The notes: generated by a model not told the origin, from the sequence alone. Shown: positions 3,502 through 37,022, counted from the stretch's first letter. The stretch: DNA of 64,000 bases from Candidatus Latescibacterota bacterium (GCA_022823725.1 JAJEHL010000026.1:558001-622000), one strand, 5' to 3'. A program made the numbers and translations.

Positions 3502-4270
3502 ATTTATGCGAGAGATTAAAGAGGAGGATGCCGCTTGCGACTGCGATGTTGAGCGATTCGACCGGGGCGGCCATGGGTATGGTGACGGTGTGATCGGATA
3601 GGGCGAGGAGGGCGGGGTCGATGCCGAAGGCTTCGTTGCCGAGGAGGAGGGCTACGGGATTTTGGATTTGGAGTTTGTGGAAGGAGATGCCGCTGGTGTG
3701 TGCTGCGATGATCTGGATGTTGCGCTGGCGGAGTTGGTGTAACAGGGCGGGTCCGTCTTGAAGGGGAAAGATGGGGAGGCGAAAGATGGTGCCCATGGTG
3801 GCGCGTACGACTTTGGGGTTATAGACTTCGACGGATCCGCGGGTGAGAAAGATGCCTTTGCATCCGGCGGCTTCGGCTGTTCGCATGATGACGCCCAGGT
3901 TGCCGGGGTCAGAGACGCGGTCGAGAATGAGGAATGGGCCAGGGGTGTTGAGGACGGTTTTGCGATCATAGGTCGGCATTGATACTACACCAAGTACGCC
4001 TTGTGGTGTGTCTGTGTCTGACATGTGTTTGAAGGCGCGCCAGTCGGTTTGCTGGATGGGGATGCGTTGTGCGAGAGTCGCCTGGTAGAGGTTTTCGAGG
4101 CGCGTGTTGCGGGCGATGCTTTCGCGGCAGAAGATGAGTTGTTCGAGGGTGTCACTGCTTTTGAGTGCTTCTTCGCAGAGACGAATGCCCTCTATGAGGT
4201 ATTTTTGTTCTGCCCGACGCATTTTGCGGCGTTTCAGATTCAGGATTTTTTTTGCGTTTTTGATGGCCAT
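3500..4270 (-). CDS. TrmH/SpoU-family RNA 2'-O-methyltransferase
   Basis: 256 residues. An N-terminal substrate-binding part (KKILNLKRRKMRRAEQKYLIEG) is followed by the SPOUT knot motifs: motif 1 DPGNLGVIMRTAEAAG, motif 2 LLLGNEAFGI and motif 3 IPMAAPVESLNIAVASGILL near the C-terminus. This is the length and order of RlmB/TrmH-like enzymes that methylate ribose of rRNA or tRNA using S-adenosylmethionine. It is the last gene of the leftward ccm operon, three bases after ccmD. The exact RNA target cannot be told from sequence. Confidence 0.9.
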   Translation of the reverse strand: MAIKNAKKILNLKRRKMRRAEQKYLIEGIRLCEEALKSSDTLEQLIFCRESIARNTRLENLYQATLAQRIPIQQTDWRAFKHMSDTDTPQGVLGVVSMPTYDRKTVLNTPGPFLILDRVSDPGNLGVIMRTAEAAGCKGIFLTRGSVEVYNPKVVRATMGTIFRLPIFPLQDGPALLHQLRQRNIQIIAAHTSGISFHKLQIQNPVALLLGNEAFGIDPALLALSDHTVTIPMAAPVESLNIAVASGILLFNLSHK

Positions 4271-4273
4271 GGG

Positions 4274-4423
4274 TTATGAGGGGTTGTCTTTGGTGATGGT
4301 GGCGCGTAGTTCACGCAGTTCTTCCCATATCGCTTTTTCGCATTTGGACAGGCTCAAGAAGTAGAGCAGGATGGCGACCCATATTATGATGTACGCCGCG
4401 GTCATATATTCGAGGTGTTGCAT
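4274..4423 (-). CDS. ccmD: CcmD-like small haem-exporter protein
   Basis: A 49-residue reading frame with SD GGAGG seven bases before ATG 4423. It has one membrane helix (TAAYIIIWVAILLYFLSL) followed by a charged, helical tail (KCEKAIWEELRELRATI), the layout of CcmD. CcmD binds CcmABC and helps release haem-loaded CcmE. Its place directly after ccmC supports the call. Confidence 0.8.
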   Translation of the reverse strand: MQHLEYMTAAYIIIWVAILLYFLSLSKCEKAIWEELRELRATITKDNPS

Positions 4424-4442
4424 AAGTTCCTCCGGGAAAAAG

Positions 4443-5120
4443 TTATATTTCAGCTTTGAGCGATTCGAGTTCGTTTTGTGCTTTTGCGAGTGATACGCGC
4501 TTGAAGAGCAGGGCGAAAAAGAGCGCGAAGAAGGTTATGACGCAAAAGAAGAAGGCCGCTTTCATGTCGGGCGGCAGGCTGATTTCTTCGCCGCGAACCA
4601 CTTCGGGATGGTGCGTGCGCCACAGTTTGGTGGCGTAATGGATGAAGGGCACATTGAGGAATCCGATGATGCCGAGTACTGCGCGAAAGCGCGCGCTTTG
4701 AACCGGATCTTCGAGGTAGGCGCGCAACATGTGATACGCTGCGAGGATGAGCCAGAGTATGAGTGTGAGTGTGAGTTGTGCATCCCAGACCCACCACGCG
4801 CCCCAGATGGGTTTTGCCCAGATCGCGCCTGTGATTAAGACCAGGGTGCCAAAGAGCAAGCTCACTTCGGCTGAACAAGCGGCCCACAGGTCGCAGTTTT
4901 TGTCGCGTTTCCACAGGTAGAATATGCTAAAGACGAAGCAGAGAAAGCTGCCCAGGAACATTGAGAAGGCAGATGGGACGTGGTAGTAGAATATTTTTTG
5001 TGCCAGTCCCATTTCTTTTTCTATTCCGGCATAGACGAATACCAGGTAGGGTGCAATGCCCAGGCAGATGAGCGCGAGAATGCCGAAGACAAGGGGAAGA
5101 ATGTAGGGTTTTTGGTGCAT
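4443..5120 (-). CDS. ccmC: Cytochrome c maturation haem protein CcmC
   Basis: 225 residues with six predicted membrane helices. The tryptophan-rich motif WGAWWVWDAQLTLTLIL (about residues 107-122) is the haem-handling WWD domain of CcmC/CcmF/CcsA proteins, and histidines flank it (YYHVPSAF before, FIHYATKLWRTHHP after). CcmC loads haem onto CcmE at the outer face of the inner membrane. It follows ccmB by two bases and precedes ccmD in the leftward ccm operon. Confidence 0.93.
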   Translation of the reverse strand: MHQKPYILPLVFGILALICLGIAPYLVFVYAGIEKEMGLAQKIFYYHVPSAFSMFLGSFLCFVFSIFYLWKRDKNCDLWAACSAEVSLLFGTLVLITGAIWAKPIWGAWWVWDAQLTLTLILWLILAAYHMLRAYLEDPVQSARFRAVLGIIGFLNVPFIHYATKLWRTHHPEVVRGEEISLPPDMKAAFFFCVITFFALFFALLFKRVSLAKAQNELESLKAEI

Positions 5121-5122
5121 TG

Positions 5123-5794
5123 TCAGTCCTCCAGGACATATTCAAATAAGAGCAGGCAGGCAGCGATGTAGAGCGCGACAAAAGCACTGCTGAGTACGAG
5201 CCAGTCTGTGATTTCACTGCCTTCGAGAACTGCGCGAAAGGATTCGATGGCTGCGAGAAGTGCCGGGATGAATATGGGCAGTGTGAGCAGGGGCAAGAAG
5301 GCTTCTCGCAATCGGGTGTTGAGCGACATGGCGGAGAAGAGGGTGCCAATGGTCGCAAAGCCGAGGGTGCCGAGCAAGATGGGGAGGATGAGACGCGGGA
5401 GTGCTTGTGCGATTTGCAGGTTGAGAAAGATGACGAGGGTGGGCAAGATGAGTGCCTGGAGTATGAGCATGGTGAGGGTGTTGCCCAGCATTTTGCCCAG
5501 GAAGATCGCACCGGGATCTGCGGGTGTGAGGCGCAATCCCATCAGGCAGTCGTTTTGTTGTTCGATGGCAAAAGATCGGCTGAGGCCCAGCAGTCCTGCA
5601 AATGCCGTGGCGATCCAGAAGATGCCGGGGGCTACGGTTTTTATGATTGGGGATCCGGGTTCATATATAAAATTGAAGATGATCACGATTAGCAATGCGA
5701 AGAAGGCCATGGCACTGAGGCGTTCTCTGGTGCGCCATTCGGTTTTGAGGTCTTTTTGGAGAATGGCGAGGGTTTGTGTAAGGAAGATGGGCAT
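5123..5794 (-). CDS. ccmB: Haem exporter permease CcmB
   Basis: 223 residues; six membrane segments and the CcmB family opening (QTLAILQKDLKTEWRTRERL) followed by the typical FAIEQQNDCLMGLRLTP block. With CcmA it forms the ABC-type complex that uses ATP to release haem-loaded CcmE from CcmCD. It lies between ccmA (three-base gap) and ccmC (two-base gap). Confidence 0.93.
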   Translation of the reverse strand: MPIFLTQTLAILQKDLKTEWRTRERLSAMAFFALLIVIIFNFIYEPGSPIIKTVAPGIFWIATAFAGLLGLSRSFAIEQQNDCLMGLRLTPADPGAIFLGKMLGNTLTMLILQALILPTLVIFLNLQIAQALPRLILPILLGTLGFATIGTLFSAMSLNTRLREAFLPLLTLPIFIPALLAAIESFRAVLEGSEITDWLVLSSAFVALYIAACLLLFEYVLED

Positions 5795-5797
5795 TTT

Positions 5798-6505
5798 TTA
5801 TTCGGTGGTTTTGTTTTCGTAGAGGGTTTGCAATGCGGATTCACTGATGTCTTTTGCCGATGCTTCGTGTACTAATTGGCCCTGGAAGAGGATGCCAAAG
5901 CGGTCTGCGAGCGCGAGGCCCCGTGCGAGGTCATGTGTGACGAGGAAGATGGTGCGTCCTTCTGCCTTGAGGGTGGTGATCATGTTCGCTAATATTGATT
6001 GAGCCGATGTATCGAGACCGGTGAAGGGTTCGTCGAGTAAGAGGATCGATGGGTGGTGCAAGATGGCGCGGGCAATGGCCAGTCGCTGTTTCATGCCCCG
6101 GGAGTATTTGTGTATCCGATCGCGCTGGCGGTTTTTCAGGCCAACGGTGAGGAGGACTTTTTCTATGCGGGTGTTGAGGTTTTGAAGGCCGTACATGCGT
6201 CCGTAAAATGCGAGGTTTTCTCGCGCCGTGAGGTCGTCGTAGAGCATGGTTTGATGCGAGATGAATCCGATGTTTTTGCGTATTTCATGCGGGTTGCGCC
6301 GGGTGTCTATGCCGCTGATCCAGATGTCGCCCGATGATGGTTTGGCCAATGTGGCGATGAGGCGCAACAGGGTTGTTTTGCCCGCTCCGTTTGGACCAAA
6401 GAGTGCAAAAATACATCCCGTTGGTACGGTGAGGTTTATGTCTTGCAGAGCCGTGATATGACCAAAACGGCGGGTTGTGTTCTGTATGTCAATGACCGTG
6501 TTCAT
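5798..6505 (-). CDS. ccmA: Haem exporter ATPase CcmA
   Basis: 235-residue ABC ATPase: Walker A GPNGAGKTTLL (about 35-45), signature YSRGMKQRLAIARA, Walker B ILLLDEPFTGLD and switch histidine in VTHD. Small size without membrane helices and the adjacency to ccmB identify it as CcmA. Its ATG overlaps the preceding gene's stop region by four bases, indicating translational coupling. Confidence 0.93.
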   Translation of the reverse strand: MNTVIDIQNTTRRFGHITALQDINLTVPTGCIFALFGPNGAGKTTLLRLIATLAKPSSGDIWISGIDTRRNPHEIRKNIGFISHQTMLYDDLTARENLAFYGRMYGLQNLNTRIEKVLLTVGLKNRQRDRIHKYSRGMKQRLAIARAILHHPSILLLDEPFTGLDTSAQSILANMITTLKAEGRTIFLVTHDLARGLALADRFGILFQGQLVHEASAKDISESALQTLYENKTTE

Positions 6506-7653
6506 TGGTTGCTATCTGATAGATCAATGACTTCGGCTTTGAGGGCATTGCGTCTGTTTTTGTAATCGTCTTCTGAGAGTTTGCCGCTTTCATATCGCTC
6601 GTCGAGGTCGGCGATTTGTTCGAGGAGAATTGTACGCCGATTGGGGGTTGTTTTGAGCGAGCGCATGTAGATGACGAGGATTGCGAGTGCGAGCGCACTG
6701 GCAGCAATGATTCCTATTGTGGTTTGTAAATTGGGTGTGAGGCTGAATTCGGATGATGAGAGTCTGATGTCGATCTGTGTGCCGGGCGCGAGTTGTTCGG
6801 CGCCAAATCGCTGAAAGACCTGATTGCCCAGGGTTATGCCGCCGAGGTCTTGAAGTATTGTTGTGGAGACAGGGGTATCAGCCGGTTGGACAAACAAGTC
6901 CATGCCCGCGGTGGGATAGGTGATGCGTTGTGCGATGCGGTTGGACGGGGGTATGGAAAATGTAAAAAAGGTCTGGCTATTTCCGGGGATGATAGGGCGT
7001 GGGTCAACGAGTAATGTATCGTGCAGGTGTACGCCTTGTGGTGCGCGGATAAAGTCGGTTACGCCGTCGGGTAAGGGTATTTCCAGGCCGTGACCATGGT
7101 CGCCGCCCGTGAGGTAGGTGCGGTCGCCGTGGTTGTGTACGATGAAAATATATGTGACTGTGCCAGCCTGAGCGTCGAGGAGGATGTGGTGTGAAGATAG
7201 GGATATGGCGGTGTCGGAGTCCGTGGTTTCAAATACGGAGATGTCAACAATGTCGCCCGCTGGTGCCGGGTTGCCGGGATAGTCTATACCGTTGTATCGG
7301 GCGAGTAGCATGGGCGGTGGGTCGGCACCCGGGTCTGAGGGTACGTCGAGGATAAATTGACCTTTACTGTCGGTGGTGTCGCGCACAATGGTGATGTCCC
7401 CGGTTTCATGAAGGATGTATGAGACTTCAATATTGGGTTCGACACGGTTGAGGGTCTGGTTGACGACGCGACCCGTGAGCGCGAAGATAGGGGTGGAAAT
7501 AAAAAGTGCAAGCATTACCAGATGCGTATAGACGCACAGGCGCAGCACTGAATTACGACCACCAGTGCAGGCTCTACAACGCAGCGGAGCAAGTAATCGA
7601 CGGAACAAGGTGTGAAATTGAGTAACCAGTGTGATCATGGTTGATGATCCCAT
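6502..7653 (-). CDS. Carboxypeptidase-regulatory-like membrane protein of the ccm operon
   Basis: An exported protein with a transthyretin-like beta domain near the N-terminus (LTGRVVNQTLNRVEPNIEVS… DSKGQFILDVP), a long beta-rich periplasmic part, one membrane helix (TIGIIAASALALAILVIYM) and a short cytoplasmic tail (LLEQIADLDERYESGKLSED). That tail resembles the one of the CcmI-like protein at 15038 (DLDERYESGKLSEDDY versus ELDFDYRMGKVEEDDY). The start is uncertain: GTG at 7548 or ATG at 7515 would give a proper signal peptide ending IFALTG, and the 5' part up to 7653 may be junction sequence from the adjacent island. It may help hold or guide apocytochrome; that role is inferred only from position. 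Confidence 0.65.
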   Translation of the reverse strand: MGSSTMITLVTQFHTLFRRLLAPLRCRACTGGRNSVLRLCVYTHLVMLALFISTPIFALTGRVVNQTLNRVEPNIEVSYILHETGDITIVRDTTDSKGQFILDVPSDPGADPPPMLLARYNGIDYPGNPAPAGDIVDISVFETTDSDTAISLSSHHILLDAQAGTVTYIFIVHNHGDRTYLTGGDHGHGLEIPLPDGVTDFIRAPQGVHLHDTLLVDPRPIIPGNSQTFFTFSIPPSNRIAQRITYPTAGMDLFVQPADTPVSTTILQDLGGITLGNQVFQRFGAEQLAPGTQIDIRLSSSEFSLTPNLQTTIGIIAASALALAILVIYMRSLKTTPNRRTILLEQIADLDERYESGKLSEDDYKNRRNALKAEVIDLSDSNQ

Positions 7654-7705
7654 TCTTTTCGAAGGTTATCCATATATGTCCCCCGTTCCATGTATCCCCC
7701 CGTTT

Positions 7706-7815
7706 GAATACGATTGATTAGTGTTGGATCATACTCTAACCCACTCAATATCATCAACCTGCCCAAAACAGTCAATCTTTATTGATTCATCCACTGGCAG
7801 AGCATGCGTAACGTC
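7706..7815 (-). pseudogene. Fragment of an Rpn/PD-(D/E)XK nuclease gene
   Basis: About 110 bases closely match an internal segment of the intact gene at 8384-9277 (positions 8663-8775), including 'atcatactctaacccactca' and 'ttattgattcatccac', with scattered substitutions. No start or stop remains. It marks an earlier duplication or insertion of the same element. Confidence 0.7.
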
Positions 7816-7818
7816 AGT

Positions 7819-7884
7819 TAATCTATAACTTCTGGCAAACAACAAAGGCTACGTCTTTCGAGGCGTAGCCTTTTCTCATTCCCT
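7819..7884. repeat. Hairpin repeat, copy 1 of 3
   Basis: Conserved unit of about 65 bases: AATCTATAACTTCTGGCAAA, then a hairpin GGCTACG..CGTAGCC between an A run and TTTT, then CTCAT. Near-identical copies lie at 9566-9628 and 10304-10363. The hairpin plus T run could act as a terminator, but conservation of the flanks shows that the whole unit was copied. Confidence 0.8.
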
Positions 7885-7911
7885 CTTTTTTCTCAATCTA
7901 TCCTATAACCT

Positions 7912-8076
7912 CTATTTCCACGTCTCCAGCAGCGCGTATAATGGCGGTGTCATTGTATCCAAATTCGGATCTGGAAAGGTATTATAAGAAAGCCCAACAA
8001 GAACCATCATTGTTGGGCCTGATGCGATTAGATCATCCGGATTCTCAAATCCTACTTTGGTAGATTTTGTTGGCAT
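7912..8076 (-). pseudogene. Truncated retropepsin-like aspartic protease (N-terminus)
   Basis: ATG at 8076 overlaps the stop of the next gene (TAATG), so it is translationally coupled. The 54 residues include LIASGPTMMVLVGLSY and PPLYALLETWK, then stop. This is the N-terminal strand region of clan AA proteases (…GPT..V.IG…ALVDTGA); the frame ends just where the catalytic DTGA should be, and the Asp is Glu. Such proteases commonly follow a small partner gene like the one at 8076-8351. The remainder of the protease is absent, replaced by repeat copy 1. Confidence 0.5.
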
Positions 8077-8351
8077 TATGCCTTTTCAAAGTTAATAGTG
8101 GAAGCAGCACTCAAAACTGTGGGTAATCCACTTCTGTATAGACTTTCTGGTGCCCCAACTTGAAGAATCAAGAAAACGCTGTCTCTGAATTTTTTGACAG
8201 CTTCGAGTATCGCTTCATCCTCCGTATCAAAGACCCCATTGAGTTCACCTTCGTAGATAATAACCCACTTACCAAAGTGGTCAAGCTCAAGGCCCTCTTC
8301 GCACAATTTGTTGTACGCGGAAATTTCATCTTTAAGTGTCCTGGCCTTCAT
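8076..8351 (-). CDS. Small protein, aspartic-protease partner type
   Basis: 91 residues. Core GKWVIIYEGELNGVFDTED followed by EAILEAVKKFRDSVFLILQV resembles a widespread family of small proteins ('F.LI..GE..G.FDT..EAL..G..RFG..PFLV') usually encoded immediately upstream of a retropepsin-like protease; the same coupling is seen here (stop/start overlap at 8074-8078). The function of the family is unknown. Because the protease gene is broken, this copy is probably non-functional in its usual role. Confidence 0.55.
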   Translation of the reverse strand: MKARTLKDEISAYNKLCEEGLELDHFGKWVIIYEGELNGVFDTEDEAILEAVKKFRDSVFLILQVGAPESLYRSGLPTVLSAASTINFEKA

Positions 8352-8383
8352 GGCGGCATCTCGTCATATATTGAAAAATCGCG

Positions 8384-9277
8384 TCACGCATCTAATACGC
8401 GCTGAAATGCCTCGAGATTGGACACCTGTATCGCCGCACGGTGCAATTGCTTGAGGTGTTGCAAATCGTCTATAGCGGTAATGCGGTCAGAGATAGGATG
8501 TGCCTTACCCAGACCAAATCGAATCTCCAACACATCAAGGAGATCTTCAATGGCGCGTTGCCTACCCCCCTGCTCAATGCCTTGCTCAATACCCAGTTGC
8601 TTAATGTATTGTGCAAACGACGATTCACGCATAATGGCATCCATAAGACCCTCCTGTAATAGAATACGATTGATCAGGCTCCGATCATACTCTAACCCAC
8701 TCAATATCATCAACCGACCCAAAAAGTCAACCTTTATTGATTCATCCACCCGCAGCGCATTTGTCGCGTCAACACAGTGATGTAACCACGCCTCCGAATC
8801 CATTCCAACAGGACGTTGCATCAACGGCACGAACGGAAACAAGCCCGAAGGTCCGCTATCTATAATCTCCTGTCCCTCTATCTCACCCAACCGGATCACT
8901 GTGTACTCCATCAAAACAGGACGGCCGGATATTTCATGATTAAAGTATCCCGGATCGCGCCGACCTGCATTGCGCCGCAAGTAGATCACACTGGAATAAA
9001 TCGGCAAGTTGTGACGCTCAATCGCACGTATAATATAGCCCGCCATGCGCAGCGGCATAGATGGATCGTCAGTGGTTTGAAACTCGTGATGTATCAATGC
9101 CTCCTTGCCCGCGATATGGACGCGGATAAGGCTATCGGCATGTCGTGTTTCAACCGTGGTTTGCTCTGTGTCGAGTATATCGAGGACTTCTACATCGTCC
9201 TGTCCAAATGTGAGTTGAATGAAGTCTTTGGGATAGGTCTGGATGAGATCTTTGGAGACAGAGTCATATTCGGCCAT
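8384..9277 (-). CDS. Rpn/YhgA-like PD-(D/E)XK nuclease family protein
   Basis: 297 residues. The N-terminal nuclease core shows D48 (HADSLIRVHI) and E65-x-Q67 (ALIHHEFQTT), the D..ExQ form of the PD-(D/E)XK site found in Rpn recombination-promoting nucleases and related 'putative transposases'. A low-complexity hinge (GIEQGIEQGGRQRAIEDLL) precedes a helical tail with FGLG, typical of the family. These proteins promote RecA-independent recombination and are often found in decaying clusters. Here a fragment of a second copy lies at 7706-7815 and three hairpin repeats surround it. Confidence 0.8.
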   Translation of the reverse strand: MAEYDSVSKDLIQTYPKDFIQLTFGQDDVEVLDILDTEQTTVETRHADSLIRVHIAGKEALIHHEFQTTDDPSMPLRMAGYIIRAIERHNLPIYSSVIYLRRNAGRRDPGYFNHEISGRPVLMEYTVIRLGEIEGQEIIDSGPSGLFPFVPLMQRPVGMDSEAWLHHCVDATNALRVDESIKVDFLGRLMILSGLEYDRSLINRILLQEGLMDAIMRESSFAQYIKQLGIEQGIEQGGRQRAIEDLLDVLEIRFGLGKAHPISDRITAIDDLQHLKQLHRAAIQVSNLEAFQRVLDA

Positions 9278-9565
9278 GTGAGATGCCCTGAGTCTGATGG
9301 ATGAATTTTACATGCAACAGTCAGACACAAAGCAAATATCGCGCCAACATCTCAGAATTGAGCGATAAATTGTATGGACAGAATCCAAGTACCTCCCATC
9401 ATGCTTTTAATATGCTATATTGCGCCCTAACTTGAATGTAAGGCTCGCCTTTGGAGACACGGACAAACGGAACGCGCAGGGATGCGAAAGGGTACATTTT
9501 GAGCGATGAATGGGCGGTTATGTGAAAGATATGTACCGCTTGATCAGGTGGTAGTGATTCTTGCG
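9278..9565. other. Gap without recognisable gene
   Basis: About 290 bases between the nuclease start and repeat copy 2. No open frame with a credible start, no tRNA and no strong hairpin were seen; a TATGCTATATTG stretch near 9413 could be a promoter for the leftward nuclease. Confidence 0.4.
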
Positions 9566-9628
9566 TAATCTATAACTTTTGGCAAATAACAAAGGCTACG
9601 TCTTTCGAGGCGTAGCCTTTTCTCATAA
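9566..9628. repeat. Hairpin repeat, copy 2 of 3
   Basis: Same unit as at 7819-7884 (AATCTATAACTTTTGGCAAA then the GGCTACG..CGTAGCC hairpin and TTTTCTCAT). No gene ends directly before it on the + strand, which argues that it is a dispersed repeat and not only a terminator. The 260 bases from here to 9891 hold no supported gene. Confidence 0.8.
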
Positions 9629-9891
9629 CCTGCTTCTGTACTATCCTAATATGTCTGCGGCCCCATGTATCCCTTGTTTTTTTAAATATCGGTTGCGCTT
9701 TAATCCTTAATACCGTATTCTCAAAAGGATAAAGGCCGCGTTTAGGAGCGCGGGCCATCGGAGAAAATTCCTATACAAAAGATGTGCCATGAATATAGAG
9801 GTTTAACTACTGCGGTTAATGCTTTTAATCGCAGAGTTTGGCAGAATAGTCCGCCTTTTACTCACGCAGTGAAAAGCCTTTGGAGGTTGTT

Positions 9892-10305
9892 ATGGCTGAA
9901 GCCACCGTGAAATCAATACAGGAAGAAAATCCTATCTATCCATTCTCTGATCAGTTGTGGAGAAATGCTTTAGATTTAGATGACAATTTAAATCGCTCCT
10001 TTGAGAAAAATATAGCAACATCTTTTCAATTACAAACGGAATTTGTACTATCTACTACTGGTCAATGGCCTATTGTTGCTGAAAAATCTGATGATGGGTC
10101 ATGGGCCGTGTATTTTAAGGATGCTCCAGATATAATCGCGGGTAGTAATGATAGTTTAGAGGACGCATTAGTTGGTTTAGCAGAAATCGTCAATGACGAT
10201 CTCCAGGACAGCAGAGAAAACAAAGATAATATCTCTCCATATCAGGCAAAACGGCATCAGTTTCTGAGAAAGGTTTTCAATCGTGAGGCTGAAATTATTA
10301 CTTAA
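9892..10305 (+). CDS. HicB-like domain protein
   Basis: 137 residues from ATG 9892, chosen for its SD (TTTGGAGG, six bases upstream) over an in-frame ATG at 9880. The segment PIVAEKSDDGSWAVYFKDAP followed by DSLEDALVGLAEIVNDDL resembles the HicB antitoxin fold (P.I.E…DG.Y.V.FPDLPG….T.EEAL..A). No HicA-like toxin is next to it, so it may be a solitary member. Base composition is A+T-rich like the following methyltransferase genes. Repeat copy 3 follows directly and could terminate it. Confidence 0.5.
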   Translation: MAEATVKSIQEENPIYPFSDQLWRNALDLDDNLNRSFEKNIATSFQLQTEFVLSTTGQWPIVAEKSDDGSWAVYFKDAPDIIAGSNDSLEDALVGLAEIVNDDLQDSRENKDNISPYQAKRHQFLRKVFNREAEIIT

Positions 10306-10363
10306 TTCATAGCTTCTGGTAAACAACAAAGGCTACGTCTTTCGAGGCGTAGCCTTTTCTCAT
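10304..10363. repeat. Hairpin repeat, copy 3 of 3
   Basis: Starts at the stop codon of the HicB-like gene (TTAATTCATAGCTTCTGGTA), then the same GGCTACG..CGTAGCC hairpin with T run. In this position it can serve as a rho-independent terminator. Confidence 0.8.
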
Positions 10364-10416
10364 TTCCTACTTTGGCTCTATCCTATATAATCCCCGTAAA
10401 AATAATAAAAAGAATC

Positions 10417-10458
10417 TTGACAGCAGTGTATTTATATCATAAGATATAAATACACTGC
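10417..10458 (+). promoter_or_regulatory. Promoter covered by a 36-bp perfect palindrome (operator)
   Basis: TTGACA (10417-10422) is followed after 17 bases by TAAGAT (10440-10445). GCAGTGTATTTATATC (10423-10438) and its exact complement GATATAAATACACTGC (10443-10458) are separated by only ATAA, filling the -35/-10 spacer and overlapping the -10. The first gene downstream starts with a Xre-type HTH domain, so autorepression through this site is likely. Confidence 0.75.
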
Positions 10459-10508
10459 CTGTGCTCATTTGAGCATCATAAAATTGATTTTACTATAAAG
10501 GAAATCAA

Positions 10509-12266
10509 ATGGGACAATTTCAAGACCGACTGATCAAATTCAGGAATGATAAAGGACTTTCGCAGCAAAATTTAGCGGAGTCCATCGGAGTTGGACAAGT
10601 GACAGTGGCACGTTGGGAAAACGGAACTTCAAAACCATCACCTCTCGCGGCTGTAAAATTGGAGGAGATAGGCTTTGGAAAGATTGATAATAGTGACACG
10701 AAACTCGCGTCTTCCCCAAAGGTCGCTCATACACCAGAAGAAAGAAAAAAGTTGAGAGACCGCATCAGATATAGAATTGGACTAGGAGAAAAAAGTTTCA
10801 GATTTGACCCCGCTCCATATGTGATAAATAGTGCTGACGATCAAGTAGATTTTTTTGAGACTTTATTTTCTCTTCAAGAACAATCAAAACTTCCCATTTC
10901 CGAGATCGAGTATATAAAACGTCTTTCACTAGTATCAGCAGTTCCAGGAATAATTCCTGCTCAGTCAGAACTCGAAAACCCAAAACTGAATGCTAAAAAT
11001 TGGAACCCGAATTATGGACCACATGGCTGGCACCGATATGTGGGACGCTTTCCTCCACATCTCGTAAGATCAATAATTAATCATTTTGGTATAAAAAAGA
11101 ATGAAACTCTTTGTGATCCCTTTGCTGGTAGCGGCACGACTTTAGTAGAAGGGAGGTTACTGGGGCTAAAAGGAACAGGAGTTGATATTTGTCCATTGTC
11201 TTGCTTAATAAGCCGAACCAAAAGCAAATTTCCGGAATCCACTTCTATGCTCGAGAAATTGAGTGAGGAATTAATAACATTTTATAGAGACCGTTGGGAT
11301 GTTTTCAATGGACAAAAAAAAATAGATGAAGTTGATTCCGATACTATAATCAGCAGAAAGGGCAATTCAATTCCTAATTTTTCTAATGTCGAAAAGTGGT
11401 TTTCTCCTGAGGCCTTGTTAGGCACATCGATAGTAGTTGAATTCGCACAAACGTTAAATGGCTACCAGCAAGATGCTATTTGCTGTGCGCTTTCTTCCAG
11501 TATGAGAAGTATTGGAAATGTTGATGTTGATGTAGTTAGAGCTGAGTATCGAAAAACCCCTCGCCAGAATGTTGATGTCTTGAAATTAGTTACCCGTGTT
11601 CTAAGAAAAATGATTGGAGATATTGGCAAATCTTTAGAGACACATCAAGGTCTGATTGGGTCTTCGGATGATATAGAAATTATCGAATCTAGTCTTTTAG
11701 AAGCAAACCTTCCCTCGGATTCGGTGGATTATGTTATTACTTCACCTCCATATGGAGTAGAGGCCATTAGTTATCTCAGAACACATTTGTTAAGCTACCG
11801 GTCCCTTCAACCTATCTTGGGCTATGATCCTTACAGTTTTAACGATAAAATAATCGGGGCTGAATATGTCAAAGAGAATGGTACTACAAAAGCGAATTGG
11901 TTGGCTTCGGATTATAGTAGTACTTTTAAACACTTTTTTCAAAACGAAGCTTTAGAAGAATCCGCTAAAATACTTCGGCGTAAAGACATGATGATGCATT
12001 TTTTTGATGATATGGTTAACGTTGCTAAGCTGTTCAGAAACATGATACGAAAAAATGGCAAAATAGCCTTTGTTGTTGGAAATAAGAAAATTGGGGATTA
12101 TGTTATTCCGACAGCTGAGATCATATCAGAAATTTTTGAATCTTGTGGATTAGAACTGTACGATACTATTGGTCACAAATTGAAGTGTAATAATAGTAAT
12201 TCAGAAGTCCCTTGGCAGGAACGGATCATACAAGACGAATTTGTGTTATTATTTACTAGAAGGTAA
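10509..12266 (+). CDS. Xre HTH-DNA methyltransferase fusion
   Basis: 585 residues; SD AAAGGA before ATG. Residues 1-55 form a Xre/Cro HTH (LSQQNLAESIGVGQVTVARW). The methyltransferase part has SAM-binding motif I DPFAGSGTT (203-211) and catalytic motif IV TSPPYG (411-416), the SPPY signature of N4-cytosine or N6-adenine amino-methyltransferases. Motif I comes before motif IV with about 200 residues between, which probably hold target-recognition sequence. HTH-fused methyltransferases of type II systems repress their own promoter, and a long palindrome lies there. A+T-rich codon use differs from the flanking ccm genes. First gene of a restriction-modification-like operon; the target sequence is unknown. 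Confidence 0.85.
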   Translation: MGQFQDRLIKFRNDKGLSQQNLAESIGVGQVTVARWENGTSKPSPLAAVKLEEIGFGKIDNSDTKLASSPKVAHTPEERKKLRDRIRYRIGLGEKSFRFDPAPYVINSADDQVDFFETLFSLQEQSKLPISEIEYIKRLSLVSAVPGIIPAQSELENPKLNAKNWNPNYGPHGWHRYVGRFPPHLVRSIINHFGIKKNETLCDPFAGSGTTLVEGRLLGLKGTGVDICPLSCLISRTKSKFPESTSMLEKLSEELITFYRDRWDVFNGQKKIDEVDSDTIISRKGNSIPNFSNVEKWFSPEALLGTSIVVEFAQTLNGYQQDAICCALSSSMRSIGNVDVDVVRAEYRKTPRQNVDVLKLVTRVLRKMIGDIGKSLETHQGLIGSSDDIEIIESSLLEANLPSDSVDYVITSPPYGVEAISYLRTHLLSYRSLQPILGYDPYSFNDKIIGAEYVKENGTTKANWLASDYSSTFKHFFQNEALEESAKILRRKDMMMHFFDDMVNVAKLFRNMIRKNGKIAFVVGNKKIGDYVIPTAEIISEIFESCGLELYDTIGHKLKCNNSNSEVPWQERIIQDEFVLLFTRR

Positions 12267-12273
12267 TATCATC

Positions 12274-12774
12274 GTGGCGAGAATGAGAGAAGATTACATC
12301 CATTATTCCATAAGGAACTATCTGCGTGCTCAAGGCTGGTTATTGATCGCTGGCCAATATCCTGATGGCTCAGATGATGAATTATCTGCGCTAAATATCA
12401 CCGATCCTGTTGTGGCGCGTGATAATAGTCCTGATCCTCGTAGGCATAGTCAGAATAAAATAGTTCCGGATTTAGTCTGTAGTAAAAATAACGTGATTCT
12501 TATAATCGAAATGAAGCCTTCCTATTCTGAGATAGATGAAAGGAAATTAGTGGATCTATTGACTGAAAGATATGAAGATATGGTGGCGTCGTTACAAGAT
12601 TTTCTGAGTGCGAAAGGAATTGTTTTAGAAAAATCCATTGAGGAATACACCTTCGTACCCTGTTTAGCTTTTTCTGCATCAAGCCGTTATAATAAAAGGC
12701 AGGATTTTTGTTACTTCAGAGTTCATGATTTACATACGCTTGAGTTTGAAGGTAATACCTCTATATCTATATAA
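12274..12774 (+). CDS. PD-(D/E)XK nuclease-like protein (candidate restriction endonuclease)
   Basis: 166 residues. I chose GTG 12274, nine bases after AGAAGG; ATG 12283 is the alternative. The core KIVPDLVCSKNNVILIIEMK shows P65-D66, twelve residues, E79-x-K81: a canonical PD-(D/E)XK site with a hydrophobic strand before the Glu. The remainder is helical and has no recognised domain. It is sandwiched between two methyltransferase genes (gaps of 7 and 9 bases), which fits a restriction endonuclease or nicking subunit. No family name can be given; an alternative is a very-short-patch or accessory nuclease. Confidence 0.65.
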   Translation: MARMREDYIHYSIRNYLRAQGWLLIAGQYPDGSDDELSALNITDPVVARDNSPDPRRHSQNKIVPDLVCSKNNVILIIEMKPSYSEIDERKLVDLLTERYEDMVASLQDFLSAKGIVLEKSIEEYTFVPCLAFSASSRYNKRQDFCYFRVHDLHTLEFEGNTSISI

Positions 12775-12783
12775 GAGATACAC

Positions 12784-13953
12784 ATGCCAAAATTAAATAT
12801 ACAAAGCGAAATTAAAAAAATTGATTGGGATTTCACGAACGCAGAAACGCAATATCTTACGCACGCTGTTCATAGATACTCCGGCAAATTTATACCGCAA
12901 ATTGCACAAGCAGTCATAAAGTTGACAACTAAAACAGACGATTTAGTTCTTGATCTTTTCTGTGGCTCAGGGACTACACTATTGGAGTGTGCATTAAACA
13001 AAAGGAAATCCATAGGCGTAGATCTTAATCCCTTGGCAGTTCTGATTTCAAAAACAAAAACAACACCCATAAAAGCTTCAATGCTTGATAACTTTTATAC
13101 CGAGATTGAAGAATATAGTAGAGGTTTCAGCAAAAACGAGAGCCTCAATCTGGACCTCTTCGAAGAAACAGGACAATCCTCCGATGAAATAGAGAAAGCA
13201 GTAACTCAAGATTTTAGATGGCAAGACAATTGGTTTGTGAAATGGTTTAGAGAGGAAATTAGGTTTGAGTTAATAGCTCTCTATCGAAAGATCGCAACAT
13301 ATTCTTGTTCAGAGTGCAGAAATATCGGTTTTACGGCGTTTAGCGATATTTTACGAAAAAGCAGCAATGCTCACAGCTCTTACCCAAATGTCATGTTTGA
13401 CAAAAATAAGACTCCTCCACCATTACCAACACCACGCTTTCTTGAAAGACTTAAAGAAATCATCTCGGCCGTTAAAAAGCTTGATGATGTGCTGAAGCCA
13501 GATTATATCCCGATAGTAATTAGATCAAACGCAAACTGCTTACCGCTGCCAGATTGTAGTATTGATGCTGTTATTACTCATCCGCCTTATATTGGCAGTA
13601 TCCCATACGCGGAATATGGCATTCTAAGTTTAGGATGGCTAGGTCATGATCATAAATATATCGACAAGATTTTAACTGGAGGTAAGCGACAATCCAAAGA
13701 TGTAGTTGAGAGATTTAGGAATGATTTTCGGATGATTTTGGCAGAATCTTGGCGAGTTCTCAGACCCGGAAAAACTCTATTTTTGATGGTCGGGAATCCT
13801 ACTGTAAAAGGACAGCGTATTGATTTATGCGAAATGACCAAGGAGCTAGCGTTACCTATAGGATTTAAGCTTCAGGGATTACATACGAGAAATGGCATAA
13901 ATAGACGAGCCAATTTAATGGGGTTGGAGAGCCTAATGTTTTTTCAAAAGTAG
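12784..13953 (+). CDS. DNA amino-methyltransferase, second of the module
   Basis: 389 residues. Motif I is LDLFCGSGTT (56-65) and motif IV THPPYIG (264-270), in the same I-before-IV order and wide spacing as the HTH-methyltransferase at 10509, but without an HTH. Preceding conserved words include HAVHRYSGKFIPQIAQAVI, as found in several uncharacterised amino-methyltransferases. Two methyltransferases beside one nuclease usually mean an asymmetric recognition site with each strand methylated separately; this is inference. The last third ends with motif-like NPTVKGQRIDLCEM and a short C-terminus. Confidence 0.8.
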   Translation: MPKLNIQSEIKKIDWDFTNAETQYLTHAVHRYSGKFIPQIAQAVIKLTTKTDDLVLDLFCGSGTTLLECALNKRKSIGVDLNPLAVLISKTKTTPIKASMLDNFYTEIEEYSRGFSKNESLNLDLFEETGQSSDEIEKAVTQDFRWQDNWFVKWFREEIRFELIALYRKIATYSCSECRNIGFTAFSDILRKSSNAHSSYPNVMFDKNKTPPPLPTPRFLERLKEIISAVKKLDDVLKPDYIPIVIRSNANCLPLPDCSIDAVITHPPYIGSIPYAEYGILSLGWLGHDHKYIDKILTGGKRQSKDVVERFRNDFRMILAESWRVLRPGKTLFLMVGNPTVKGQRIDLCEMTKELALPIGFKLQGLHTRNGINRRANLMGLESLMFFQK

Positions 13954-13968
13954 AAATGTGTAATTTAT

Positions 13969-14928
13969 TCATAAAGCAGATTTAGGCAAGTAGCCATCTG
14001 AAAATAGAATACCATCTGCTGCGAGTCTAAACAATTTGATATCTTTTCGTTTGCGCGAACCTTGAGCTGTAGTCTGCCATTTTTCTTTACTAACTTCTGG
14101 AAAATGCAGCACAAGATTTTTAGTCCTATTTTGCATACCTGAACAATACAGATAAAGATATAGTATAGACATACCTGTGTATGGGTCAGATCTTATATTT
14201 CTCATGCCAATTTTATATAAAACAGTTTCATGGCATTTTAAATTATTTGTATCGGAGTTATGGAGTTCTGGTAACATACTCGAGCGGTCAATCGAGACGG
14301 AGCTTGGTGGATCGTCATATTGTGCAGGATTCACTACATCTGTAGAAATGAATCTTTTCCTTTCAGCCTCTTGTTCTCGCTCAAATTCTGATGTTTTTAT
14401 AGCCTGTATGAGATCATCCCAATACAATTTTGGATATAAATCAAAAAATAGGGCCAAATAATCTTTCATACGTATGTCTTTGCTTGAATTCTGTATGATT
14501 TCATATCCTTCATCAACAGGCCAATTAATAGTTGAGACGGCTGCTTTTTCTATGCTTGCCAGATTTTTTAGTGCTTGAAAGAGTCGTAGATTCATGTATC
14601 GTGGTCCTTGAGTGGAACCACCATGCTTATATGCAGCATAAGGTCCAAAGTAAACCACAGGTATTCGCATTTGAGCTGCTGCCGCAAGGCGTGCGAAGCG
14701 TTGTCCAACGTTGTGTCCACTGGGTACTTCTATCGTTCTTTCAATAACTAAAATCGGCTTACCTTGGTCTGTTAAAACAATATCGGGCTTATCATATGCC
14801 AATACATTACTTAAAAGTTCTGGCATATCTGGTTGAATCGGAAATGGTGAGAGTATTGCATCATTAAGTTTTGGATGTAAAGACTGAAACCATATTCCCT
14901 CTTGAATACTATCAAAAAATATCTCCAT
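13969..14928 (-). CDS. PD..ExT nuclease-like protein convergent to the methyltransferases
   Basis: 319 residues, convergent with the methyltransferase operon (15-base gap). Near residue 48 it reads DKPDIVLTDQGKPILVIERT: P48-D49, then E63-x-T65 at the end of a hydrophobic strand, a PD-(D/E)XK-type core in which the usual Lys is Thr. Following text GHNVGQRFARLAAAAQMRIP and VVYFGPYAAYKHGG suggests an intact alpha/beta core. No family name is known to me. A+T-rich composition and position support membership in the same R-M-like module, perhaps as a second nuclease subunit, but an independent function is possible. Confidence 0.5.
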   Translation of the reverse strand: MEIFFDSIQEGIWFQSLHPKLNDAILSPFPIQPDMPELLSNVLAYDKPDIVLTDQGKPILVIERTIEVPSGHNVGQRFARLAAAAQMRIPVVYFGPYAAYKHGGSTQGPRYMNLRLFQALKNLASIEKAAVSTINWPVDEGYEIIQNSSKDIRMKDYLALFFDLYPKLYWDDLIQAIKTSEFEREQEAERKRFISTDVVNPAQYDDPPSSVSIDRSSMLPELHNSDTNNLKCHETVLYKIGMRNIRSDPYTGMSILYLYLYCSGMQNRTKNLVLHFPEVSKEKWQTTAQGSRKRKDIKLFRLAADGILFSDGYLPKSAL

Positions 14929-14982
14929 AGTTCACTCTTTGCCTTTCTCTCATAGAATTCCTCTATATAATCCGCCATACAA

Positions 14983-15034
14983 CGCCTTTTATCTGCGTCT
15001 ATCCCTGTTTTCACAGGGACATGCCTGCGGATAG
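14983..15034 (-). repeat. Interspersed repeat family B, short copy
   Basis: Read leftward: ATCCGCAGGCATGTCCC, a small hairpin, then AGGGATAGACGCAGAT and AAAGGCG. It matches the repeats at 18331 and 25872 but lacks their middle part. It lies exactly at the right edge of the island interrupting the ccm operon. Confidence 0.6.
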
Positions 15035-15037
15035 TAT

Positions 15038-15418
15038 TCACTCGCGTTTTCTTTTCCCGTGGCGAATGGCGGCGATTTCTTTTTCTATCTGGTCGGAGAT
15101 TCCCTGCGGTTTGCGCGCGGGGCGGTTTGCGCGTTCAGTGGCTTTGTCGAGGGATTTGATGAGTTCTACTGCTTGTGCCGTATAACGGGCGCGGGTTTGC
15201 CGGTAGTCGTCTTCTTCGACTTTTCCCATGCGATAGTCAAAGTCGAGTTCGCGGATGGCTTCATAGACCATGTCGCGCTGTTCGATCAGTTCGCGGCGTC
15301 GCGCTTCTCTGCGGGAGATCTGGTTGATGGTTTTGGCGTCGTCGCGGGGGTCGAACAGCGGTGTGAATATAAAGAGCAAGATGCCCGCTGCGATGAGGAT
15401 AAAAGCGGCAATGATCAT
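15038..15418 (-). CDS. CcmI-like cytochrome c maturation membrane protein
   Basis: 126 residues: one N-terminal membrane helix (IIAAFILIAAGILLFIFTPLF), a charged helix and the segment YEAIRELDFDYRMGKVEEDD typical of the N-terminal part of CcmI-like proteins. CcmI presents apocytochrome to the CcmF/CcmH lyase; this short form lacks the C-terminal TPR domain. Its ATG overlaps the ccmH stop (TAATG in reverse order). The next operon gene to the left is separated by the island at 7654-15037. Confidence 0.7.
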   Translation of the reverse strand: MIIAAFILIAAGILLFIFTPLFDPRDDAKTINQISRREARRRELIEQRDMVYEAIRELDFDYRMGKVEEDDYRQTRARYTAQAVELIKSLDKATERANRPARKPQGISDQIEKEIAAIRHGKRKRE

Positions 15419-15876
15419 TACTCTCGCTCCTTGAGGTCGCTTTCGAGGCGGTCGAGGTACGGGTCATCGCGCGCGGGTTGTGCTGTTGATGTGGCGGGTG
15501 TTTTTGTTTTTGACCAGGTTCGGATTACGCTGCGTACGCCGAAGAATCCGAGGAGAAGAACGAGGGGTGGCATGATCCATGCTACGAGGTTGAAGCCTTT
15601 GGCTGGCGGTTTGGAGAGGATTTCCAGGCCAAATTCACTTATATAAGCATCGATAATGGCCTGCGGCGTTTGACCGGAGGCCAGCATTTTTTTGATGCGG
15701 TCTTTCTGTTGCAGTGCATACCCACAAATGCATTCGTCCAGGGGGCGGCGCGGGCAGTCCCCGCACAAGCAGGCGAGTTCTTTGCCCACTTCATCGATCT
15801 GTTCCTGGGTCACTTCGGCGCGGACGGGTATTGCGAAGAGAAGAAAGAATATTGGGATGAGGATTGCGGGCTTCAT
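15418..15876 (-). CDS. ccmH: Cytochrome c maturation thiol protein CcmH
   Basis: 152 residues from ATG 15876, which gives a clean signal peptide (KPAILIPIFFLLFAIPVRAE). The periplasmic part has LACLCGDCPRRPLDECICGY, a cysteine-rich variant of the LRCxxC motif with which CcmH reduces the apocytochrome CxxCH disulfide. A helix (LVAWIMPPLVLLLGFFGV) anchors it and a short tail follows. The extra cysteines match the 'CPCGCC…C.C' style known in deltaproteobacterial CcmH. The start overlaps the ccmF stop by four bases. Confidence 0.85.
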   Translation of the reverse strand: MKPAILIPIFFLLFAIPVRAEVTQEQIDEVGKELACLCGDCPRRPLDECICGYALQQKDRIKKMLASGQTPQAIIDAYISEFGLEILSKPPAKGFNLVAWIMPPLVLLLGFFGVRSVIRTWSKTKTPATSTAQPARDDPYLDRLESDLKERE

Positions 15877-17858
15877 GCCATCGCCTCCCGCATTTGCAAT
15901 GCCTGTTTTTCGCGCTTGTCGGGCCACATGACGATGATGGTGCCGATTGTGATTATCCACGCACCTATCCAGACCCACATGACGAGGGGGTTGATGTACA
16001 GGTGAAAGAGGGCGATTTCTTCGCCGTCTCGCATGTCAACGCCCTGATAGAGCGCGTAGAGGTCTTCTCGCAGGTTGGAGCGAATGGCGACTTCTGTGGT
16101 TCTTTGTTGATCTTGTCGCTTGTAATAGACTTTCTGGTGGGGCCACATGGTGCCCAATCGCTGTCCGTGTTTATAGACGCCGAGCTGGGCGACGATATCC
16201 GCGGTGAGTGGATTGACGGATTCGGTAATGCCTTCATAGGTGAGGGTGTAGGGTCCGATGTCGGTGGATTCCAAGTATTTGAGTTCGACCTGGGAATCTT
16301 TGTTGAATGCATTGCCGGTAAATCCGATGAAGAGCAGGACCACGCCAAAGTGGATGATATAACCACCGTATCGACGGCGATTTCGCCGGGTGAGGTTGAC
16401 GATTGCGCGGAGATAGGATTCGCCAGAGCTGCTGCCGCGCGCGCGCGCGCCGCGATGAAATTCGGTGATGATGGTGCCTGTGACAAAGCCGCAGAAGATG
16501 AAGGAGATGATGGCGTAGATGTCGCGTACGCCCAGGGCGATGGCGACGATGCCGCAGATCAGTCCCATGATGCTCGATCCCGTGAAGTGCTTTCTCAGGC
16601 TTTTGCCCGAGGTGCGCCGCCAGGCGAGCAAGGGTCCTATGCCCGTGAGTACGAGCAGGAGCAGGCCAATGGGTACCATGACGGTGTTGAAGTAGGGGGG
16701 ACCTACGGTGATTTTGTCACCGGTAACGGCTTCGGAGATGACGGGAAACATGACGCCCCAAAAGACGGCGAATGTGGCGGTGAGGAAGAGCAGGTTGTTG
16801 AGCAAAAAACCACCTTCGCGCGAGATGGGAGATTCGTATTGTGTTTTGGTTTTGAGCAGGTCCAGACGCGAGACGAGGAGGAGGCTTGAGAAGATGACGA
16901 TCAGGACGACGAGGACGCCAAACCAGGGCCCAATGGGAGACTGGGCAAACGCGTGTACGGAGGATACGACGCCACTTCGCGTGAGGAAGGTGCCGTAGAT
17001 GCACAGGGTGTAGGTGGCGATGATGAGGACCATGTTCCAGATTTTGAGCATGCCCTTTTTTTCCTGGATCATGACGGAGTGCAAGAAGGCCGTGCCGGTT
17101 AGCCAGGGCAAGAGGGCGGCGTTTTCGACCGGGTCCCAGCCCCAGTATCCGCCCCAGCCGAGTACGACGTAGGCCCATTTGCCGCCGAGGAGTTGTCCCG
17201 TGCCCAGGAAGAACCAGGCGAGGAGGGTCCAGCGGCGGGTGGTGCGAATCCACTCTTCGTCGATTTGTCTGGATAAGAGGGCGGCCATTGCAAAGGCAAA
17301 GGGTACGGTAAAGCCGACGTAGCCGTGATAGAGCATTGGGGGGTGGATGGCCATGACGGGATGGACGAGCAGGGGGTTCATGCCGGTTCCATCGGGCATG
17401 GCGCGCGGCATGGTGACAAATGGATTTTCGTGGATGCAGATGAGCGCGAGGAAGAAGGCGAGCGTGAAGGACATGATGGCTGTGGCATAAGAGGCGAGGG
17501 GGCCGCGAAAGGCACGGGTTTTTATGACGGCAAAGAATATGAATCCGGATAGAATCAATGCCCAGAGTAAGAGCGATCCCTGCATGCCGGACCAGACGGC
17601 TGTGAATTTATAGCCGGTGTACAGGTCGCGGCTGGAGTGGGTGGCGATGTAATGGACATCGAAGCGGTCTGTGAGGAAGAGCACTTCGAGAATGGCCATG
17701 GCGGAGAGGCAGAGCAAAAAACCGGTGAGGACTGCGCGTTCAGTGCTCAGGATGAGGCCCATTCGCCGGGTTTTGGCCGCTAATATTGCGGCGATGACCG
17801 CATAAGCCGAGGTGAATAGGGCGATATAAAGGAGAAAGTTACCGAGTTGTGGGAGCAT
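15873..17858 (-). CDS. ccmF: Haem lyase CcmF
   Basis: 661 residues and about fifteen membrane helices, the usual CcmF length. The haem-handling motif GWGGYWGWDPVENAALLPW lies near residue 235 and is preceded by conserved LVHPVMAIHPPMLYHGYVG; a later histidine occurs in TEFHRGARARG and a large periplasmic domain sits before the last helix. CcmF takes haem from CcmE and, with CcmH, ligates it to apocytochromes. It is the second gene of the leftward ccm operon. Confidence 0.95.
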   Translation of the reverse strand: MLPQLGNFLLYIALFTSAYAVIAAILAAKTRRMGLILSTERAVLTGFLLCLSAMAILEVLFLTDRFDVHYIATHSSRDLYTGYKFTAVWSGMQGSLLLWALILSGFIFFAVIKTRAFRGPLASYATAIMSFTLAFFLALICIHENPFVTMPRAMPDGTGMNPLLVHPVMAIHPPMLYHGYVGFTVPFAFAMAALLSRQIDEEWIRTTRRWTLLAWFFLGTGQLLGGKWAYVVLGWGGYWGWDPVENAALLPWLTGTAFLHSVMIQEKKGMLKIWNMVLIIATYTLCIYGTFLTRSGVVSSVHAFAQSPIGPWFGVLVVLIVIFSSLLLVSRLDLLKTKTQYESPISREGGFLLNNLLFLTATFAVFWGVMFPVISEAVTGDKITVGPPYFNTVMVPIGLLLLVLTGIGPLLAWRRTSGKSLRKHFTGSSIMGLICGIVAIALGVRDIYAIISFIFCGFVTGTIITEFHRGARARGSSSGESYLRAIVNLTRRNRRRYGGYIIHFGVVLLFIGFTGNAFNKDSQVELKYLESTDIGPYTLTYEGITESVNPLTADIVAQLGVYKHGQRLGTMWPHQKVYYKRQDQQRTTEVAIRSNLREDLYALYQGVDMRDGEEIALFHLYINPLVMWVWIGAWIITIGTIIVMWPDKREKQALQMREAMA

Positions 17859-17873
17859 GTATTTGGGTCTCGT

Positions 17874-18311
17874 TTATTCGTACGATGCTTTGATTTCTTC
17901 GTAGCTCTGGCTTTCGTATTTGGAAGGGCATTTGGCGAGCATGTTGTCGGCTATAAAGATGCCATTGGGTCCGATTTCGCCTTCGAGTACGACATCGGCT
18001 TCTTCGCGGAAGGTGTCGGGTACGACGCCGGTGTAGCGGATGGTGCGTTTGTTGGCTGATGGATCTTGGTCGATGAGGTCAGCGATTTCAAATTCGACGG
18101 TGCGGTTGCCGTCGCGGGAGATGATGGTGCCGGGGATGACTTTGCCGGCGAGTTTGAAGCGGGTGTTGGCAAATTCGGTTTCGCGCGCTTCCAGTTCGGA
18201 GACGGTGAGGTAGTACAGCGACATTTTTTCAGAGCTATACACGATCATGGTGAGCAAGCTGGCGATAATGACGGCAAATCCAGCGATGAATTTTATTTTT
18301 TTCGTGGTCAT
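17874..18311 (-). CDS. ccmE: Haem chaperone CcmE, CxxxY type
   Basis: 145 residues from ATG 18311 (SD AGAGG seven bases upstream), with an N-terminal membrane anchor (KFIAGFAVIIASLLTMIVY) and the OB-fold typical of CcmE (TRFKLAGKVIPGTI, VVLEGEIGPNGIFIADNML). The usual haem-binding HxxxY is replaced by C128-P-S-K-Y132. This Cys form is known from archaea and some deltaproteobacteria (System I*), where the Cys binds haem covalently. First gene of the ccm operon, 15 bases before ccmF. Confidence 0.92.
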   Translation of the reverse strand: MTTKKIKFIAGFAVIIASLLTMIVYSSEKMSLYYLTVSELEARETEFANTRFKLAGKVIPGTIISRDGNRTVEFEIADLIDQDPSANKRTIRYTGVVPDTFREEADVVLEGEIGPNGIFIADNMLAKCPSKYESQSYEEIKASYE

Positions 18312-18330
18312 TTCAACCTCTGTGAAAAAA

Positions 18331-18420
18331 GTATCCGCAGGCATGTCCCCCGTATAAAAACACTACGGGGCAGGCTCTGCAGGTGTAAGCAGGGATGGAC
18401 ACAGATGGACACAGATGAAA
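18331..18420 (+). repeat. Interspersed repeat family B, full copy
   Basis: ATCCGCAGGCATGTCCC, then CCCGTATAAAAACACTACGGGG (a hairpin), CAGGCTCTGCAGGTGTAAGC, then AGGGATGGACACAGATG with an extra direct GGACACAGAT copy. The same unit occurs at 25872 and in shortened form at 14983. The rest of the gap up to 18546 holds nothing recognisable. Confidence 0.75.
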
Positions 18421-36931: not shown

Positions 36932-37022
36932 ACTGCACCTTTCTGTGTTAGAGACATGTCTCGCGGTCAAAATATATTTTCAGGCGCGATAGGCAAGCGC
37001 GTTCCATTGAAGTCCCAATAGG

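Follow-up and report, generated by a model that had tools for sequence, protein, structure and literature searches.

How a cytochrome c maturation (ccm) operon can keep both of its halves with 7.4 kb of accessory DNA lodged between them is the question raised by a 64,000-nt stretch of DNA (hereafter the window; G000:C2:558001-622000) from the 5.3-Mb genome (G000) of a Candidatus Latescibacterota bacterium, a name that records of the same genus also carry. The 2 halves, ccmE-F-H-I and P-ccmA-B-C-D-trmH, where P encodes a carboxypeptidase-like membrane protein, are intact as judged by Pfam, collinear and on the same strand, and the 7.4 kb between them holds genes on both strands. The original prediction, which was made from this sequence alone, described one island in the operon and left room for a recent event. 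From comparisons with related genomes, we favour a different explanation, to which we assign a probability of roughly 0.72, namely that the ccmI-P junction is a hotspot in an ancestral operon, that cassettes are exchanged there at copies of a 63-bp hairpin repeat, and that the downstream half depends on borrowed promoters. Within the limits of comparative sequence data, our analysis showed that the operon is split, what its ancestral state was, that the content of the junction varies, that the repeats are locus-specific and in a single orientation, and that flanks are exchanged at them.

Ancestral state and age of the split

Alignment with relatives, as the original prediction had advised, revealed an uninterrupted ccmI-P arrangement outside the genus. 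In 30 of 30 such relatives with both genes on one contig, drawn from several families of the phylum, the distance from CcmF to P was 0.59-1.29 kb, which is just the space taken by ccmH and ccmI, and the ccmI-P gap measured 31 bp in G013 (sister genus g4), 57 bp in G011 and 93 bp in G020. The adjacency and collinearity of ccmI and P in these outgroups show, at the level of gene order, that the operon was once continuous, with ccmI followed directly by P-ccmABCD-trmH. The claim that a ccm operon had been split by a 7.4-kb accessory stretch was thereby borne out, the halves being intact and collinear in the window and the sister genera unsplit.

Within the genus, the junction was occupied in all 6 of the genomes in which it is contiguous, and ccmI and P flank every insert. 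Insert sizes were 7.4 kb in the window, 3.2 kb in G002, 2.5 kb in G001, 3.8 kb in G009, 9.1 kb in G007 (a single-contig genome) and 1.3 kb in G010. The ccm halves of G003, G004 and G006 are on separate contigs whose ends carry island sequence, and the G005 contig stops 28 bp beyond ccmI. The halves are separated by 442 kb in G008, which falls outside the other ten genus genomes in a tree built from eight cluster proteins. Gene by gene, the ccm halves of the window are ~80-99% identical to those of close relatives other than G008. Because the junction is occupied in every genus genome where it is contiguous and the G008 halves are also apart, the split is, on this genomic evidence, old, and dates to the ancestor of the genus or to that of all members but G008. 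A recent split is thus contradicted; the split is common to the whole genus, and only a restriction-modification (RM) block in the window is strain-specific. Nor did a single island emerge, but instead a nested mosaic of cassettes whose content differs in each genome, and by these comparisons the ccmI-P junction is a genus-wide integration hotspot with swappable content.

A second insertion point was observed between ccmE and ccmF, where the gap is 18-21 bp in six genomes and 0.3-3 kb in G003, G004, G005, G008 and G009. Its cargo includes a PIN-like protein, an endonuclease/exonuclease/phosphatase-like protein and small open reading frames (ORFs), one of which overlaps the ccmE stop; in G008 the site holds a proteasome-subunit-like protein. 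Occupancy does not follow the tree, since the pairs G002/G004, G000/G005 and G007/G009 each have one filled and one empty member, and this pattern fits repeated replacement through the flanks.

The hairpin element and transcription of the downstream half

Repeats had been predicted between the ccm halves, and they are indeed present, as three copies of the 63-bp hairpin (Table 1), although they are not border repeats; self-comparison found no direct repeats pairing the two island borders. The core of the unit, AAAGGCTACGTCTTTCGAGGCGTAGCCTTT, folds into a hairpin that has T tails and a loop of the UUCG type. All three copies of this core in the window genome are inside the island. Among the 11 genus genomes, 9 carry a total of 22 hairpins (up to 3 mismatches), every one of them in the island, and the core was found in none of 36 other genomes of the class. 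A laxer search with the 63-bp unit returned 24 places, each of them within the island and oriented alike with respect to ccm. The element is therefore tied to the locus and not to the Rpn nuclease genes that accompany it, since it occupies one locus whereas the Rpn protein has 17 matches in the window genome; the element was absent from the other Rpn loci of that genome. The exact 24-bp core had no match in IMG/VR viruses, and no known RNA family matched the 3-19 kb segment at up to E 1.

When the sequences flanking the 22 elements were clustered, 8 classes resulted on the left and 5 on the right, and these are joined in 13 combinations; the end of hicA, for example, meets four different left partners across the element. 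The breakpoints at which cassettes are exchanged thus coincide with the element. In the explanation that we favour, an Rpn-type cassette with the 63-bp hairpin would have entered in the common ancestor of the genus, or in that of its members other than G008, and toxin-antitoxin, Rpn and, in the window genome, RM cassettes would later have been gained, lost and swapped at the same site. Recombination between direct 60-bp hairpin repeats could duplicate, delete and re-pair cassettes in new orders, and recombination in the conserved ccm flanks could carry whole islands between strains. We infer that homologous recombination at the repeats and the ccm flanks was the mechanism of exchange.

The hairpin stem, with its T tail, is also terminator-like, and transcripts probably terminate there. 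The copy next to ccmI would end the ccmEFHI transcript and cut the upstream half off from P-ccmABCD, while the hairpins would insulate the cassettes from one another's transcription. If the ccmEFHI transcript does stop at this point, then P-ccmABCD would need a new promoter. The region upstream of P, and the N-terminus of P with it, varies between lineages, which bears out the proposal that the 5' end of the gene starting at 7653 is junction sequence; the start is probably the ATG at 7638, which is kept in G002 and G004, rather than 7653. We observed three arrangements upstream of P. In G001 and G010 an Rpn gene ends 22 bp before P, and P-ccmABCD could be expressed by read-through from this full gene. 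In G007 and G009 there is an inverted toxin-antitoxin upstream region, which could supply the promoter. In the window and in G002, G003, G004 and G006, the same Rpn fragment has been retained. Transcription has been reported to start inside all E. coli rpn genes, with RpnS antitoxins made within the gene (PMC10327210). The fragment retains the rpnS promoter-like region, ends just before the rpnS ribosome-binding site, and in the window contains the promoter-like sites TTGACT-17-GATATT and TTGATG-18-TATGAT; it could thereby provide P-ccmABCD with the internal promoter region of rpnS. The downstream half, then, would borrow its promoters from the neighbouring cassette. As to whether this half had gained its own promoter or the event was recent, a promoter was most likely acquired, and the second choice falls away.

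Several observations weigh against the explanation as a whole. The segment from 7400 to 10600 has 13 promoter-like sites as compared with 7.0 +/- 2.5 in shuffled sequences, but single sites are weak, and the peak of synonymous conservation over the rpnS promoter is likewise weak (z about 1.9) and suggestive. The flank classes were defined by single-linkage blastn. Many of the elements are orthologous copies, such that the counts of orientations and flanks are not independent, and several of the genomes are metagenome-assembled, with contigs ending in the island.

Alternative explanations and known systems

The palindrome might have a more active role, as a dedicated, locus-restricted site of cassette exchange, in effect the counterpart of an integron array that either lacks an integrase or is driven by Rpn, lodged within a core operon whose transcription it also rewires; we consider this unlikely. 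A related proposal, about which we are decidedly sceptical, is that the 63-bp element is the site-specific recombination site of an unrecognised integron-like cassette system, driven by Rpn or by a recombinase encoded elsewhere. As in integron arrays and in clusters of attC sites lacking integrases (CALINs), the cassettes are small and often of the toxin-antitoxin type, with short palindromes of fixed orientation between them, and the sites are confined to a single locus per genome; moreover, Rpn proteins are reported to have a part in RecA-independent transfer in E. coli (PMC5350276). However, no integron integrase (TIGR02249) scored over the cut-off in the 11 genus genomes, the attC boxes RYYYAAC and GTTRRRY were absent around the palindrome in the 4 elements checked, the cassettes lie on both strands with no recombinase among the cassette ORFs scanned, and ordinary recombination between 60-bp direct repeats would suffice with no new enzyme. 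Identity with an integron or CALIN was rejected for want of an integrase over the cut-off and of attC boxes.

A single insertion of one mobile element (a transposon, a genomic island or the remnant of a prophage) that then decayed, with the differences among genomes representing decay, is already disfavoured and in our estimation improbable. Such an event would account for the split at the same junction in every member of the genus and for the broken genes (the hicA deletion, the Rpn fragment, and Rpn copies that are truncated or carry E65K), but not for cargo that differs in kind among genomes (RM block, LRR, dockerin, BrnTA, DUF433/DUF5615), and there are no terminal repeats that pair the island's borders, while the hairpin joins different neighbours. 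An assembly or binning artefact that joined foreign DNA into the operon is highly improbable, for although the assembly of the window genome has 51 contigs and no second genome shows the RM block, independently assembled genomes have an occupied junction too, among them single-contig G007 with its 9.1-kb insert, and the RM block is bordered on both sides by island sequence common to relatives.

An insert within an operon comes at a cost in expression, and hotspots are therefore expected at the edges of operons; under the favoured reading of exchange at hairpin repeats, inserts at this locus are apparently tolerated because the cassettes supply terminators and promoters. The usual, though not strictly defining, location of hotspots is between transcription units, whereas the present site is inside a collinear ccm gene set. 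Oliveira et al. 2017 (PMC5635113) described core-flanked transfer hotspots that lack mobile elements and attributed exchange to homologous recombination at the flanks. The ccm locus resembles these in its fixed core flanks, high turnover and absence of a recognised integrase among the ORFs scanned, but is unlike them in being within one biosynthetic operon, with its own locus-specific, repeated, terminator-like element. Similarly, cDHS1/2 of Pseudomonas aeruginosa (PMC10250203) hold variable immune genes between conserved genes and are not tied to one mobile element; the ccm island is far smaller, mostly toxin-antitoxin and Rpn, and intra-operon, with one repeat between modules. The locus is thus an unusual, intra-operon variant of the core-gene-flanked defence hotspot, and an anti-phage function of the island genes seems probable. 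For as long as the genus has existed, a respiratory biogenesis operon has been host to a changing complement of defence and toxin-antitoxin genes, and a locus-specific element makes cassette gain, loss and joining readable in the sequence without a known mobile element. The locus also offers a test of whether Rpn nucleases shape their own host locus, and a place to seek defence genes in an uncultured phylum.

Cargo of the junction and other features

Coordinates are collected in Table 1. The modules common among genomes comprise two subfamilies of Rpn genes, a HicBA-like pair, BrnTA, DUF433 with DUF5615, and a 91-aa ORF that is present in G002, G003, G004 and G006 and cut short in G007. Genome-specific cargo mostly adjoins ccmI; the window has its RM block, G002 a gene of 143 aa, G003 and G006 a dockerin-like protein, and G007 an LRR protein. 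Also adjoining ccmI in G007, G003 and G006 is an inverted-repeat-like stretch, CTTCGGCGACC...ACAAAAAGTCGGCAAAAAA (L145:3900-4250, L149:8050-8200, L151:890-1100), which could be a mobile-element end.

Table 1. Positions of annotated features (window coordinates unless a locus is named)
Feature	Position	Strand	Basis or remark
Downstream half, P-ccmA-B-C-D-trmH	3500-7653	-	Pfam; tblastn in relatives
trmH	3500-4270	-	Pfam SpoU/TrmH
ccmD-like	about 4274-4423	-	
ccmC	4443-5120	-	Pfam CcmC
ccmB	5123-5794	-	Pfam CcmB
ccmA	5798-6505	-	Pfam ABC ATPase
P, carboxypeptidase-like membrane protein	6502-7653 (probable start, 7638)	-	
Rpn fragment	7706-7816	-	codons about 168-206, frameshifted
Hairpin copy 3	7818-7880	-	63 bp, 100% to query consensus
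Small accessory ORF, 91 aa	8076-8351	-	weak DUF5678, below cut-off
Rpn gene, 297 aa, intact	8384-9277	-	D48...E65-x-Q67; C-terminal domain
Proposed internal gene rpnS, 86 aa	8384-8644	-	ATG at 8644 after AGGAGGG
Hairpin copy 2	9566-9626	-	
HicB-like antitoxin gene	9880-10305	+	comparison with L142 and L146
Hairpin copy 1	10302-10364 (stem 10328-10357)	-	bidirectional-terminator-like
Strain-specific RM block, about 4.6 kb, 37-38% GC	10396-14981		edges by blastn against relatives
Palindrome before MT1	10423-10458		self-inverted match; adjoins promoter-like site 10417-10445
MT1, N-terminal helix-turn-helix (HTH) fused to N4/N6 DNA methyltransferase	10509-12266	+	HTH_3, N6_N4_Mtase; PADLOC MTase_II 1.9e-165
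Nuclease-like protein	12241-12774	+	weak Hjc match, below cut-off
MT2, second DNA methyltransferase	12784-13953	+	N6_N4_Mtase; PADLOC MTase_II 6.9e-132
RE, candidate restriction endonuclease	13969-14928	-	PADLOC REase_II 4.8e-06, 23.5 bits
Upstream half, ccmE-F-H-I	15038-18344	-	Pfam CcmE, CcmF_C, CcmH; tblastn
ccmI-like	15038-15418	-	position; tblastn conservation
ccmH	15418-15978	-	Pfam CcmH
ccmF	15873-17858	-	Pfam CcmF_C
ccmE	17874-18344	-	Pfam CcmE
ccmE-ccmF inserts	L147:3113-4285; L156:2847-4403; L153:7945-10985		

What had been called nuclease debris proved to be debris in part, being one intact Rpn gene and one Rpn fragment. The intact protein matches TIGR01784 at 2.7e-05 and 24.1 bits, below the cut-off of 52.1 (best family member, 2.8e-08), and Pfam Transposase_31 at 14.1 against a cut-off of 21; annotated Rpn relatives are ~27-29% identical, and annotated plasmid relatives ~25-31%. 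A PD-(D/E)XK-type motif (D48, E65-x-Q67) is recognisable by sequence, and E65 is kept in 39 of 43 Rpn copies. The structure model was too poor to confirm the fold or to search with, and the Rpn profile had no match in PDB. An AGGAGG and in-frame ATG at the rpnS start are kept in 43/43 copies at the sequence level. Of the 10 island copies, the C-terminal domain is missing from 6, and E65K, a change found in no other of the 43, is carried by 4 of the truncated ones; the window copy is intact. Like the Rpn gene-within-gene toxin-antitoxins (PMC10327210), these Rpn genes have D...ExQ, a variable repeat linker and a C-terminal domain with an internal start preceded by a strong ribosome-binding site; unlike them, they are distant from annotated plasmid relatives and below curated cut-offs, and most of the island copies are truncated. 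The G008 genome (5.7 Mb) has 86 matches to the Rpn protein as compared with 12-36 in congeners and none in several sister genera, and this is a large lineage-specific expansion. The Rpn locus L165 (G000:C2:76500-87500) contains another palindromic repeat, CTGGATCGCGGC...GCCGCGATGAC, in many copies, for example at 2281-2364, 3831-3904 and 9042-9175.

Unlike a HicBA pair, the hicB of the window has no neighbouring hicA, which was lost when 259 bp were deleted between two CGTGA motifs (5 bp of microhomology), an event that fused hicB to the last HicA codons. The hicA gene is present in G002, G004, G007 and G009 (HicA-like Pfam 3.8e-05, below cut-off).

The A+T-rich defence-like genes of the prediction are present, although what they make up is a type II RM-like block. 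As in type II RM systems with two methyltransferases, two type II-type enzymes are beside candidate nucleases, but the collections searched contain no close relative of the candidate endonuclease. MT2 has a local match to solved N4-cytosine methylases, while MT1 had distant matches only (22-29%) in plasmids and phages; relatives of Rpn and MT2 in viral contigs were sought and none was confirmed. The match for RE is weak and is to a nicking-endonuclease model; RE had no Pfam family or PDB relative, was not in 63 other phylum genomes searched, and had no relatives in plasmid records, and its structure model (predicted local distance difference test score 34) was too weak to search with. The palindrome before MT1 is possibly an operator for the HTH of that protein. 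Composition was compared as had been suggested, and the inserted 10-15 kb segment is unlike the ccm genes: GC is 0.36-0.38 as compared with about 0.53 on either side, GC at third codon positions is 0.26-0.34 in the RM genes and 0.58-0.73 in ccm-cluster genes, and the codon-similarity index is about 0.48-0.50 and 0.67-0.82, respectively. The block, unique to the window genome, is a candidate RM system that was acquired recently and by horizontal transfer. Elsewhere in the window, the segments 34000-38000 and 56000-61000 have lower GC and/or near-zero GC skew, unlike most of its length, and could be other inserts.

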